From the NCBI RefSeq assembly GCF_016887565.1, contig NZ_CP069396.1, positions 9,654,001 to 9,718,000 on the forward strand: 64,000 nt of DNA, read 5' to 3'. Of the stretch, positions 12,890 to 30,925 are shown in pieces (within the stretch, counting starts at the first letter, position 1; each line of letters starts with the position of its first letter). Below the pieces are notes generated by a model, which saw nothing but the letters and a program-made list of their open reading frames with translations, had not been told where the DNA came from and did no database searches. The DNA is from Archangium violaceum. Its GTDB lineage: Bacteria > Myxococcota > Myxococcia > Myxococcales > Myxococcaceae. The translations under genes were made by a program, and so were the position numbers.

Positions 12890-12918
12890 TTCGCCCCCTC
12901 TGGAATGGGTGCTAGCGT
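12890..12918 (+). promoter_or_regulatory. Possible sigma-70 promoter for the small lipoprotein gene
   Basis: TTCGCC, then 17 bp, then TAGCGT at 12913-12918. The -35 is poor (about 3 of 6). The -10 has the TAGNNT form seen repeatedly in this window. It would start transcription at or next to GTG 12926, giving a leaderless or nearly leaderless message. Confidence 0.35.
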
Positions 12919-12925
12919 CCTCCAG

Positions 12926-13345
12926 GTGATTCGCCTGCTTGCTTTACTCCTGGTGTTCGTCCTGGGTGGGGCGTGTGCCCACACGAAGAAGACGTCGGAC
13001 CTTCAGACCCTGCGTCCCGTGGTGGAGGGATTCCACCAGCGGGTGCGCTGGAAGGACTACCGGTACGCCATCCGCTACATCGTCCCCGAGCGGCGCCAGG
13101 ACTTCGAGAAGGCGCGCCGGGAGCAGCATGACGAGAGGGACCTGTCCATCACCGACTACGAGATCGAAGACGTCCAGCTCGTGGAGGAAGGGCAGCGGGC
13201 CATCGTCACCAGCCGCATGGAGTGGATGCGCCTGCCCTCGGTGACCCAGCAGAGCGACACCGTCACCTCGGAGTTCATCTACCGGGACGGCACGTGGCTG
13301 CTGGAGAAGCAACGCGGGGGCCCCTTCGACGGCGAGCTGCCCTAA
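12926..13345 (+). CDS. Small lipoprotein of unknown function
   Basis: About 139 residues. It has a signal peptide (VIRLLALLLVFVLGGAC) with a lipobox-like LGGAC, then a mixed alpha/beta domain of the NTF2/DUF4878-like size. This contains charged helices (FEKARREQHDERDLSITDYEIEDVQLVEEGQ) and ends in a strand-rich part (TVTSEFIYRDGTWLLEKQ). The pattern of an altered-by-phosphorylation-or-stress secretory domain that reports 'verify with required input' resembles many myxobacterial lipoproteins of unknown role. An ATG at 12905 is in frame and would add seven residues. I prefer GTG 12926 because a TAGNNT -10 element overlaps the upstream start. Its stop codon runs into the A-tract of the converging terminator. 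Confidence 0.68.
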   Translation: MIRLLALLLVFVLGGACAHTKKTSDLQTLRPVVEGFHQRVRWKDYRYAIRYIVPERRQDFEKARREQHDERDLSITDYEIEDVQLVEEGQRAIVTSRMEWMRLPSVTQQSDTVTSEFIYRDGTWLLEKQRGGPFDGELP

Positions 13346-13388
13346 AAAAAAACCGCCCACCGCCTCGGGGCCGGCCGAAGCGGTGGGC
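13344..13388 (-). terminator. Strong Rho-independent terminator (minus strand)
   Basis: The arms CGCCCACCGC (13353-13362) and GCGGTGGGCG (13379-13388) form a perfect 10 bp GC-rich stem. Read on the minus strand it is followed by nine U residues (A-run 13344-13352). The plus strand has no T-run after the hairpin, so it ends minus-strand transcription, most simply that of the candidate sRNA starting near 13471. Confidence 0.9.
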
Positions 13389-13471
13389 GTCGGAGGCTCC
13401 CCAATGGAACCTCCTAACCAGGTTCGCGGGGTGAGGGGCTGAAGTGGCCCGCCCTCACCGCGCTTCATGCC
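13344..13471 (-). ncRNA. Candidate sigma-54-driven small RNA with three stem-loops (Pxr-like?)
   Basis: Transcription from the sigma-54 promoter at 13482-13498 would begin near 13471 and stop at the terminator, giving about 128 nt. The RNA can fold into three hairpins. The first pairs GGUGAGGG with CCCUCACC (about 13433-13458). The second pairs GGAGGUUCC with GGAGCCUCC around a short loop (about 13392-13414). The third is the terminator stem. No open frame of note lies inside. Myxobacteria of this suborder are known to encode Pxr, a sigma-54-dependent sRNA with stem-loops that restrains development. Identity with Pxr is only a possibility here; I cannot align them. Confidence 0.6.
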
Positions 13472-13481
13472 TGGCCTATAG

Positions 13482-13498
13482 AGCAATGCGAGTGCCAA
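13482..13498 (-). promoter_or_regulatory. Sigma-54 (-24/-12) promoter
   Basis: On the minus strand the sequence TTGGCACTCGCATTGCT matches the sigma-54 consensus (TGGCAC, N5, TTGCW) with the invariant GG and GC exactly 10 bp apart. Start is expected near 13471. No coding gene starts downstream before the terminator at 13344, which is why I assign it to a small RNA. Confidence 0.78.
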
Positions 13499-13582
13499 CC
13501 TCTCGACGGCCCGGTCTCCTCGTGAGATCAAGGGGTTGCACGCATCCCCCCTGTGAACCCCCGTGCCAGAAATGCCACGGCC

Positions 13583-13600
13583 CCTGACACGCATGTCAGG
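13583..13600. promoter_or_regulatory. Palindromic enhancer-like site 1
   Basis: CCTGACACGCATGTCAGG is an imperfect 18 bp palindrome (TGACAC / RTGTCA arms). It lies about 110-130 bp upstream of the predicted sigma-54 start, the usual distance for an enhancer-binding-protein site. Confidence 0.5.
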
Positions 13601-13631
13601 AGCCGCTTGGAACGACACCGCTGTCCGCCCA

Positions 13632-13645
13632 TGACACGTGTGTCA
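13632..13645. promoter_or_regulatory. Palindromic enhancer-like site 2
   Basis: TGACACGTGTGTCA has perfect TGACAC/GTGTCA arms and shares 12 of 14 bases with site 1. Its centre is 47 bp from that of site 1 and about 168 bp upstream of the predicted sigma-54 start. It sits just after the stop codon of the SDR gene. Confidence 0.5.
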
Positions 13646-13650
13646 GGGGG

Positions 13651-14595
13651 CTACTCGCCGACGACGGAGCGGATCGTGTCCCGCATGGAGTAGCGGGGAG
13701 ACCAGGACACGTCCTTGCGCCAGCGCGAGCCGTCCACGTTGCAGAGGAACTGGATGTGATCCAGCTCGGGCGGCGGGAAGTTGGCCAGCCGGTACTTGAA
13801 GAGCAGGCCGAGGAGCGGCCGGGCCACGGGGTGCGGCACGGGGATGGGGCCGTGGCCGAGCTCCCGGTGAATGGAGGACAGGGGCACCTCGCCGGGGCCC
13901 ACCACGTTGTAGACGCCCTTGGGCTCGGGACGCAGGGCGGCCTCCACCATGGCGCGCGCTACGTCCTCCACGTGGATGAGCTGCACCATGGGGTCGAACC
14001 CCGCCAGCACCCAGGGGTGGCGCAGCCGCAGGTAGTTGCTGGGGGCGTTCTTGATGGTGGGGCCCACGATGTGGACGGGCCGGAGGATGACCGTCTGGAC
14101 GTCGGGGTGCTTCCAGAAGAAGCCATGCGCGAGCATGTCGACTTCGATGAGGTCACGCACCCCCGAGAAGCGGCTGGCCGCCATGAGCGGCGCGTCCTCG
14201 GTGAGGAAGTTGGAGTTGTCCGGGCTGGGGCCGTAGACGTTGGCCGAGGAGAGGACGACCACCTTGGGCACGCGGTAGCGGGCGCAGTACTCGAGCAGGC
14301 GCGTGGTGCCCACCACGTTGAAGGAGTGGTGCTCCTCCTCGCTCATGCGCGGGTCGTGCATGATGCCCATGTGGATGACCGCGCGGATGTCGTTCTTGCG
14401 GAAGACGTCCTCCGCCTTCTTCTTGCGCAGGTCCAACTGGTGCATCTCGACGTCCTTGGGCCGGCCCACGAAGGGGCGCCGGTCGATGCCGATGATGCGC
14501 TCGTGCTTGTGCAGCAACTTGGCCAGGGTCCGGCCCAGGTTGCCGCTGATGCCGGTGACGACGACGGCCGGTCTCTTGGAAGGATCCTGATTCAT
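13651..14595 (-). CDS. NAD-dependent epimerase/dehydratase (extended SDR) with altered active site
   Basis: A 314-residue Rossmann protein with the dinucleotide motif TGISGNLG at about 15-22, then DRRPF, LDLRK and VIHMGIMHDPR, typical of extended SDRs. After the catalytic Ser strand (VVVLSSANVYGPSP) the usual YxxxK should appear, but the aligned stretch reads ASRFSGVRDLIEVDML, so Phe and Arg seem to replace Tyr and Lys. This would make it an atypical or non-catalytic SDR, for example an NAD-binding regulator. ATG 14595 overlaps nothing; the acyltransferase gene lies immediately downstream of its start on the same strand and ends 17 bp before it, so the two probably form an operon. Confidence 0.82.
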   Translation of the reverse strand: MNQDPSKRPAVVVTGISGNLGRTLAKLLHKHERIIGIDRRPFVGRPKDVEMHQLDLRKKKAEDVFRKNDIRAVIHMGIMHDPRMSEEEHHSFNVVGTTRLLEYCARYRVPKVVVLSSANVYGPSPDNSNFLTEDAPLMAASRFSGVRDLIEVDMLAHGFFWKHPDVQTVILRPVHIVGPTIKNAPSNYLRLRHPWVLAGFDPMVQLIHVEDVARAMVEAALRPEPKGVYNVVGPGEVPLSSIHRELGHGPIPVPHPVARPLLGLLFKYRLANFPPPELDHIQFLCNVDGSRWRKDVSWSPRYSMRDTIRSVVGE

Positions 14596-29704: not shown

Positions 29705-29747
29705 GGCGGCCCACGCAGTTCGGTGGCCCGCGCGGCTCCAAGCAGCT

Positions 29748-29834
29748 GGAGGAGTGGCCGAGCGGCTGAAGGCAGCGGTCTTGAAAACCGCAGGTGGCGA
29801 AAGCCTCCCGTAGGTTCGAATCCTACCTCCTCCG
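29748..29834 (+). tRNA. tRNA-Ser (anticodon TGA)
   Basis: Acceptor GGAGGAG pairs with CTCCTCC and the discriminator is G. The anticodon loop CTTGAAA carries TGA, there is a long class II variable arm, and the T-loop reads GGTTCGAATCC. CCA is not encoded. Confidence 0.96.
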
Positions 29835-29877
29835 TTTTTGTTCTTGCTGTACGCGGTTCTTTGACAGTACTGGCAGT

Positions 29878-29967
29878 GGAGAGATGGCCGAGAGGCTGAA
29901 GGCACAGGTTTGCTAAACCTGCATACTCGAAAGGGTATCGAGGGTTCGAATCCCTCTCTCTCCGCCA
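29878..29967 (+). tRNA. tRNA-Ser (anticodon GCT)
   Basis: Acceptor GGAGAGA pairs with TCTCTCC, discriminator G, and CCA is encoded. The anticodon loop TTGCTAA carries GCT, with a class II variable arm and a GGTTCGAATCC T-loop. Confidence 0.96.
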
Positions 29968-29975
29968 CTCATCTT

Positions 29976-30025
29976 GGTTGTGGTAGCGCGAAAGTGGTTG
30001 TGGTACAGAGTTCGCGGTTGTGGTA
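29976..30025 (+). repeat. Three direct repeats GGTTGTGGTA on an exact 20-bp period
   Basis: The 10-mer GGTTGTGGTA occurs at 29976, 29996 and 30016 with unrelated 10-base spacers, in the gap between tRNA-Ser(GCT) and tRNA-Arg(ACG). The 20-bp period keeps the copies on one face of the helix, so a protein-binding site upstream of tRNA-Arg is a possibility. Confidence 0.6.
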
Positions 30026-30047
30026 GAGCGGTAGAAGGAAACGGCAA

Positions 30048-30124
30048 GCTCCCTTAGCTCAGCTGGATAGAGCGTCGGACTACGAATCCGAAGGCCGGAG
30101 GTTCGAATCCTCCAGGGAGCGCCA
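30048..30124 (+). tRNA. tRNA-Arg (anticodon ACG)
   Basis: Acceptor GCTCCCT pairs with AGGGAGC, discriminator G, CCA encoded. The anticodon loop CTACGAA gives ACG, whose A34 is the standard target of TadA for conversion to inosine. Confidence 0.97.
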
Positions 30125-30148
30125 ACCTTTCCCCTCTCCACCTTTCCC

Positions 30149-30616
30149 ATGAGTCTGGACGAAGCTTTCATGCAGCAGGCCCTCGTGCTCGCGCGGGAAG
30201 CTGCTGGACTCGGGGAAGTTCCCGTCGGTGCCGTGGCCGTACACGATGGCAAGGTCATCGGAGTCGGCTTCAATCGTCGGGAGATCGACCGGAACCCCCT
30301 GGCTCACGCCGAAATCTTCGCGCTGGACGCAGCGGCCAAGGCGCTGGGAGCGTGGCGGCTCACGGGTGTCACCCTGTACGTGACGCTGGAGCCGTGCGCG
30401 ATGTGCGCCGGAGCCCTGGTCCAGTCCCGTGTGACGCGTCTGGTGTTCGGAACCTCGGATCCGAAAGCAGGCGCCGTCGGGTCGCTCTACAACCTGGCCG
30501 AGGAGCCCCGGCACAACCACCGGCTCCAGGTCATGAGTGGAGTGTTGGCGGACGAGTGCCGCCTCGTTTTGAAGGAATTCTTCGAGCGCCTGCGCGAGAA
30601 GAAACGCGAAAAGTGA
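30149..30616 (+). CDS. tadA: tRNA-specific adenosine deaminase
   Basis: A 155-residue cytidine-deaminase-fold enzyme with HAE (His53, Glu55) and PCAMC (Cys83, Cys86), the zinc site of TadA. AGALVQSRVTRLVFGTSDPKAGAVGS is the TadA-type continuation. It converts A34 of tRNA-Arg(ACG) to inosine so that one tRNA reads CGU, CGC and CGA. Its substrate tRNA ends 24 bp upstream, which supports the assignment over other deaminases. The ATG follows the tRNA 3' end directly and lacks a clear ribosome-binding site. Confidence 0.95.
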   Translation: MSLDEAFMQQALVLAREAAGLGEVPVGAVAVHDGKVIGVGFNRREIDRNPLAHAEIFALDAAAKALGAWRLTGVTLYVTLEPCAMCAGALVQSRVTRLVFGTSDPKAGAVGSLYNLAEEPRHNHRLQVMSGVLADECRLVLKEFFERLREKKREK

Positions 30617-30621
30617 ATATT

Positions 30622-30708
30622 GGAGAGCTGGCCGAGTGGTCGAAGGCACCTGACTCGAAATCAGGCATACCGGGAACGGTATCGTAGGTTCGAATCCTAC
30701 GCTCTCCG
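30622..30708 (+). tRNA. tRNA-Ser (anticodon CGA)
   Basis: Acceptor GGAGAGC pairs with GCTCTCC, discriminator G. The stem CTGA/TCAG holds the loop CTCGAAA with anticodon CGA; class II variable arm present; CCA not encoded. Confidence 0.95.
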
Positions 30709-30721
30709 CAGAGTGTCTCAT

Positions 30722-30808
30722 GGAGAGGTGGCCGAGCGGTTGAAGGCGCACGCCTGGAACGCGTGTATATCTGAAAGGGTATCGTGGGTTCGAATCCCAC
30801 CCTCTCCG
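30722..30808 (+). tRNA. tRNA-Ser (anticodon GGA)
   Basis: Acceptor GGAGAGG pairs with CCTCTCC, discriminator G. The stem CACGC/GCGTG holds the loop CTGGAAC with anticodon GGA; class II variable arm present; CCA not encoded. Confidence 0.95.
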
Positions 30809-30836
30809 TACGTGTTGTAGATTTTGAAGAGCTTGT

Positions 30837-30916
30837 GGTCGGGACAACGTGGGGACGTGAACCCCGCCAGGTCCGGAAGGAAGCAACGGTAGCGCACCTC
30901 CGCGTGTGTCCCGGCC
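30837..30916 (+). ncRNA. ffs: Signal recognition particle 4.5S RNA
   Basis: The hallmark domain IV sequence CAGGTCCGGAAGGAAGCA is at 30868-30885. The flanks GGTCGGGACA and TGTCCCGGCC pair to close the hairpin. It binds Ffh and targets nascent membrane proteins. The ends are estimates from pairing. It lies directly after the tRNA-Ser(GGA) gene and is followed by a terminator. Confidence 0.92.
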
Positions 30917-30925
30917 GTTCTTGTG

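Follow-up and report, generated by a model that had tools for sequence, protein, structure and literature searches.

Pxr is a sigma-54-dependent small RNA (sRNA) that represses development in the suborder of myxobacteria considered here. Sigma-54 promoters are activated by a looping hexameric regulator, and in myxobacteria they often respond to starvation, development and motility signals relayed by two-component systems. Among other regulatory RNAs, CsrB/RsmZ and GlmY imitate or titrate protein binding sites. The locus that we describe lies in a 64,000-nucleotide stretch of DNA (hereafter, the window), and its predicted product resembles Pxr (RF01812) in being myxobacterial, in its sigma-54 promoter, in its length of about 110-130 nt with three hairpins, and in occurring as tandem copies in some genera (PMC5568312).

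Sequence comparison bears out the finding: the locus is a gene for a short regulatory RNA rich in hairpins, shared by genomes across the Myxococcus family. Several marks of sigma-54-dependent sRNA genes were found at this locus, namely a GG-N10-GC promoter kept in relatives, phased enhancers, an intrinsic terminator and no conserved frame. The RNA gene, its predicted structure, its promoter, its enhancer with the phasing, and its non-identity with Pxr are all supported by the comparisons below. The family is real and well conserved, it is apparently undescribed, and it is not Pxr. Searches of Rfam 15 at gathering and at permissive thresholds gave ncS035 and Pxr as best matches, both far below their cut-offs, and in open-licence papers, a body that leaves most subscription papers uncovered, we found no description of this RNA. 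Among myxobacterial sRNAs, the papers found report functional work for Pxr alone, and the sRNA described here would thus be a second, highly conserved RNA gene.

The RNA, its conserved core and its distribution

The features of the locus are collected in the table below. Elsewhere in the window, at 29747-30924, four serine tRNA genes and one arginine tRNA gene are clustered with a small SRP RNA gene.

Table. Features of the sRNA locus and its surroundings, in window coordinates
Feature	Position	Strand	Details
Predicted sRNA	13344..13471	minus	128 nt, predicted +1 to end of U tract; start inferred from the -12 position
Lineage-specific 5' hairpin SL1	about 13463-13426	minus	fold; leader comparison
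Conserved 72-nt core unit (model R1)	13344..13415	minus	97 bits; 43-sequence alignment A1
Core hairpin SL-A	13392..13414	minus	9 pairs; invariant pentaloop AUNGG at 13405-13401
Terminator hairpin SL-B	13354..13389	minus	15 pairs; invariant hexaloop CCGGCC at 13374-13369
Sigma-54 promoter (-24/-12) TGGCACTCGCATTGCT	13482..13497	minus	perfect TGGCAC-N5-TTGCW
Proximal enhancer palindrome TGACATGCGTGTCA	13585..13598	minus	87 bp before -24 box; centre near -120
Distal enhancer palindrome TGACACACGTGTCA (TGACA-N4-TGTCA)	13632..13645	minus	134 bp before -24 box; centre near -168
NAD-dependent epimerase/dehydratase family gene, upstream neighbour	13651..14595	minus	PF01370; conserved synteny, outside the RNA
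Convergent small lipoprotein-like gene	12905..13345	plus	stop codon abuts sRNA 3' end

A first-pass annotation of the window had described a 128-nt segment able to form three hairpins and ending in a 10 bp stem followed by nine U. The segment does fold into three hairpins (-72.6 kcal/mol, z = -4.3), and none of 200 shuffled sequences folded as well, but the 5' hairpin is specific to certain lineages and the conserved core is confined to the last 72 nt, which comprise two hairpins, the second of them a terminator. The nine U were recovered by a terminator scan, whereas the stem before them has 15 pairs, the annotated 10 being its lower part.

The 43 distinct 72-nt cores could be aligned without gaps (alignment A1). 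The two-hairpin structure leaves 95.7% of the alignment cells paired, as against 37-60% for slid controls, and two-sided changes occur in 12 of the 24 pairs (6/9 in SL-A and 6/15 in SL-B), with a covariation score of 0.303 compared to 0.185 for shuffled and no more than 0.136 for slid alignments. An independent structure prediction arrived at nearly the same two hairpins. The SL-A loop sequence, CAUNGGGG, is present in 118 of 119 units and that of SL-B, CGGCCGGCCCCG, in all 119; the SL-A pentaloop has a computed unpaired probability of about 1, and within the core only these two loops are exposed, the RNA being almost fully paired. In two further families of the same order (f7 and f8) the stem round the first loop is altered, with GG-CC or CCCA-UGGG in place of CC-GG, while AUNGG is kept, and the terminator loop is the same as elsewhere. 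Invariant loops on changing stems are a sign of sequence-specific contact.

The region before the core is much more variable. A long leader (47-61 nt, with more than 30 nt before the core), usually able to form a hairpin, is found in 50 loci, and in the remaining ones the predicted start falls 2-13 nt before the core, giving an RNA of about 75-85 nt. Since the 5' hairpin is not universal, function must reside in the core. An ATG near the 5' end of the RNA in the window is absent from the Myxococcus and Corallococcus leaders, and the predicted transcript appears to hold no conserved coding frame, for which the short-leader lineages would leave little room. We also considered loop-loop pairing of the 5' hairpin (GGGCC) with the terminator loop and dropped it, complementarity of at least 5 nt being present in 87% of cases versus 74% with shuffled leaders.

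By nucleotide search the intergenic region matches 95 of the 96 genomes of the family, in 26 of 26 genera, the most distant matches spanning only the last ~75 nt. The core model R1 likewise matches 95/96 genomes of this family (f1), together with one genome of f7 and five of f8, and the palindrome, promoter and core are all retained in these two families. Outside the order nothing convincing was obtained for R1 among the 195 genomes of the phylum search, and in family f3 (Anaeromyxobacter-like by its position in the order) there was one partial 28-bit match, no better than antisense. A scan of named genomes placed the RNA in Myxococcus (including M. xanthus strain AM003, which has two units), Pyxidicoccus, Corallococcus, Archangium, Hyalangium and Citreicoccus. 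One genome carries a second, diverged copy of the core (64 bits) in another genomic place, with an enhancer and promoter of its own (G001:C6:375227).

All 27 genomes of genus g19, which by the named scan takes in Myxococcus and Pyxidicoccus, have two to four adjacent core units arranged head to tail behind a single promoter, repeating every 71 nt or so. The inner units keep both loops and have an interrupted U tract (e.g. GGATTCTTGTA), which makes it plausible that they are read through to the last, stronger terminator. A three-unit array of the Myxococcus type is also borne by BNCN01000011.1, a record titled Comamonas sp. KCTC 72670; the title looks wrong.

Promoter, enhancer sites and candidate activators

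The match to the sigma-54 consensus noted at first pass proved to be perfect, and TGGCAC-N5-TTGCW has one exact match in 64 kb. With up to one mismatch allowed the pattern occurs twice, 1.5 occurrences being expected, so that a match alone is weak and the case for the locus rests on conservation. Among 84 loci with enough upstream sequence, 63 agree with TGGCAC-N5-TTGCT at all 11 specified bases and 18 at 10, while the N5 varies; 81/84 promoters thus match at 10 or 11 of these bases.

The two palindromes also stand as described, on the minus strand, about 120 and 168 bp upstream and identical at 12 of 14 positions. A proximal palindrome (at least 8 of 10 positions, 60-115 bp away) is present in 80/84 loci, i.e. 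95%, as against 1% of shuffled upstream regions, and its half-site bases GAC/GTC do not vary in any of the 65 distinct matched cases, the central N4 being free. Its distance to the promoter takes only the values 76-77, 84-89 or 97-99 bp, classes that are one helical turn apart, with a best period near 10.5-11 bp, the three classes being linked to lineages and hence representing few independent events. A sigma-54 activator working by looping would be expected to give helical phasing of this kind. In many relatives a distal site recurs 45-47 bp farther upstream than the proximal palindrome, which leaves about 31-33 bp between them. Judging by this arrangement, transcription of the sRNA almost certainly depends on sigma-54 polymerase and on looping from the two enhancer sites. 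Weaker palindrome-like sequences (8/10) lie between and after the main sites of the window, GGACAGCGGTGTCG at 13613-13626 and TGGCATTTCTGGCA at 13564-13577 (minus strand), and are possibly extra contacts of the regulator. In two small genomes of genus g23 (G086 and G084; L114, L115) the palindrome has been lost, its place upstream being taken by direct repeats similar to TGTTGCATTTNGCA, which suggests a switch of activator.

No gene for an enhancer-binding protein was seen near the sRNA in nine loci examined by a motif check that reached up to about 9 kb either side, contig ends permitting. The genome of the window contains nine perfect TGACA-N4-TGTCA sites, two of them at the sRNA locus; the other seven have no fitting sigma-54 promoter within reach, so that by this strict rule there is no further regulon member in that genome. 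A looser combination of palindrome and promoter had one other match there (8140566).

In the small f8 genomes the enhancer is retained and enhancer-binding proteins are few, and a phylogenetic profile based on small genomes narrowed the activator candidates, of which groups A and B were examined further; groups C-E yielded nothing. In group A (L283, L284, L285, L287) a conserved regulator gene is followed by a sigma-54 promoter and a gene for a secreted coiled-coil-like protein. This regulator was set aside, the promoter next to it having no TGACA-N4-TGTCA palindrome, and the group A enhancer, with its GAAAATCC elements, looks different from that of the sRNA. In group B (L296, L297, L298) a conserved enhancer-binding-protein gene precedes TGACA-N3-GTC palindromes and a sigma-54 promoter leading into a gspC-like (type II secretion) gene, and it is likely that type II secretion is controlled by this neighbouring regulator. 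With half-sites (TGACA...GTC) like those of the sRNA but one base closer (3 bp apart, not 4), the group B regulator is the nearest lead for the activator; we found no evidence of its acting on the sRNA.

Pairs of palindrome and promoter occur in other places in some lineages. In three Corallococcus genomes (L182, L183, L184) a TGACA-N4-TGTCA-like site and a sigma-54 promoter ending in CCCGACAGTTGCT, spaced 87 or 98 bp, lie before a gene for a secreted metalloprotease-like protein. The same arrangement (87 or 97-99 bp) is found in four genomes of genus g3 (L178, L179, L180, L181) before a small gene whose product starts with MGRTK, MGRNK or MGHSK. In f8, lipoprotein genes near the sRNA are likewise preceded by the palindrome and a suitably spaced sigma-54 promoter. 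Because several of these pairs have the same spacings, the regulator of the sRNA may have extra targets in some lineages.

Possible modes of action

With a probability of roughly 0.7, we read the locus as encoding a stand-alone, trans-acting sRNA that is controlled by an NtrC-type activator looping to a sigma-54 promoter and that pairs with mRNAs, starting from its loops, without Hfq. An activated NtrC-type enhancer-binding protein would bind both TGACA-N4-TGTCA sites, loop over about 90 bp of DNA and drive sigma-54 RNA polymerase from TGGCAC-N5-TTGCT. Transcription would stop at the strong intrinsic terminator, and the product would be an almost fully paired RNA presenting the invariant loops AUNGG and CCGGCC, through both of which it would act without Hfq, most probably by loop-initiated pairing with mRNAs. 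That mode appears the likeliest because Hfq (PF17209) gave no match in five genomes, among them that of the window, whereas it did in 5 of 14 control genomes, and because only the two loops are exposed. The transcript, its activation by an enhancer-binding protein, its action in trans and the pairing through loops are thus what we infer.

One may also consider that the RNA is a decoy, whose AUNGG and CCGGCC hairpins imitate or titrate the site of an RNA-binding protein, the number of units setting the dose. This is the main rival to mRNA pairing, and we regard it as possible if doubtful. Outside the loops and the lineage-specific leader the RNA has no long unpaired seed, a feature equally compatible with protein binding and with pairing, and both the almost complete structuring of the RNA, with invariant loops on covarying stems, and the g19 arrays, where two to four units behind one promoter multiply the binding sites, favour a decoy. 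However, the loops do not contain the GGA of CsrA sites, and tandem units could equally raise the dose of a pairing RNA. That the family constitutes a new class of sigma-54-controlled decoys working without Hfq, in which the module binds an RNA-binding protein and the Myxococcus arrays of two to four raise the dose, seems to us rather unlikely.

Other explanations would tie the RNA to its neighbours. In the loci fetched from relatives the gene order is acyltransferase-like gene, epimerase, sRNA, convergent lipoprotein and TPR protein; the lipoprotein gene, for which Pfam gave no match in the window, is present in 86 of 91 loci. The core, promoter and palindrome persist in f8 loci where the customary neighbours are missing, so that the RNA is separable from those genes. 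Action in cis as an antisense regulator of the lipoprotein gene, through overlap of that gene's mRNA tail with the sRNA, would account for the abutting of the sRNA 3' end and the lipoprotein stop codon, as well as for the convergent arrangement, with the lipoprotein gene downstream of the sRNA, in 85 of the 91 loci. It is nevertheless very unlikely, given that the f7 and f8 loci checked have no match to that gene and yet keep the core, and that invariant loops on changing stems would be left unexplained. Even less probable is that the hairpins are merely the 3' untranslated region and terminator of the epimerase gene, which lies upstream on the same strand in 80/91 loci and whose read-through transcripts would end at the sRNA terminator: a footprinted sigma-54 promoter and phased enhancers stand between that gene and the hairpins, neither SL-A nor invariant loops would be required for termination, and f8 has promoter and core with no epimerase nearby. 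The least credible reading, a homologue or paralogue of Pxr, has in its favour the shared promoter type, size and three-hairpin outline and an end-to-end alignment with the Pxr model, and is countered by the scores, the separate pxr genes and the differing control elements and loops given in the next section.

The sRNA gene is present in Myxococcus xanthus itself and offers a ready experimental object. Its orphan enhancer sequence is now defined and offers a handle for finding the activator, and the arrays of one to four units form a natural series for studying how the number of copies of an RNA module evolves in a bacterium that seems to lack Hfq.

Comparison with known systems

The first-pass annotation had offered two options, a homologue of Pxr and a different member. 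The second stands. The Pxr model aligns end to end with the locus (13344-13465) at 21.8 bits, far below its gathering score of 80, while the window's genome has four tandem pxr genes 1.2 Mb away (G000:C1:10863439-10864470, 82-97 bits), and R1 does not exceed 18.3 bits in the pxr loci that were searched. These true copies are adjoined by an enhancer-binding-protein gene (10864734-10866122). They lie about 300 bp apart (G000:C1:10862900-10866900, L122), same-genus relatives having two to five, and the four-copy array resembles the tandem pxr paralogues described in Cystobacter (PMC5568312). The -12 box of the sRNA is TTGCT, whereas the promoters of the 30 pxr loci that we read have TGGCA[C/T]-N5-CTGCT, and TGACA-N4-TGTCA is absent from all 30. 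Pxr lies downstream of pxrR (of the two-component genes pxrR/pxrK), the sRNA downstream of an epimerase gene, and the latter has its own enhancer palindrome and different invariant loops. By model score the two are not homologous.

GlmY of enterobacteria, activated by QseF/GlrR, is likewise a sigma-54-driven sRNA gene with several palindromic upstream sites and an NtrC-type regulator (PMC6075780). The QseF consensus, TGT-N12-ACA (PMC6075780) or TGTC-N10-GACA (PMC8745638), differs from TGACA-N4-TGTCA, and neither form is found at the sRNA. The regulator genes of GlmY are adjacent to it, in contrast to what was seen at our locus; sequence relationship was compared through Rfam only.

The promoters controlled by NmpR in M. 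xanthus share with the sRNA an NtrC-like regulator and paired palindromes before a sigma-54 promoter (PMC11841059). NmpR as the activator is ruled out by its site, GCGCA-N5-TGCGC, and its paired sites are mostly 14-15 bp apart (PMC11841059), a much shorter interval than that between the two palindromes described here.

Finally, CsrB/RsmZ RNAs are similar in their repeated hairpins, in a fixed loop sequence and in the variable number of hairpin copies. The loops of the sRNA, AUNGG and CCGGCC, differ from theirs in having no GGA core, and what is repeated is a two-hairpin unit that ends in a terminator.
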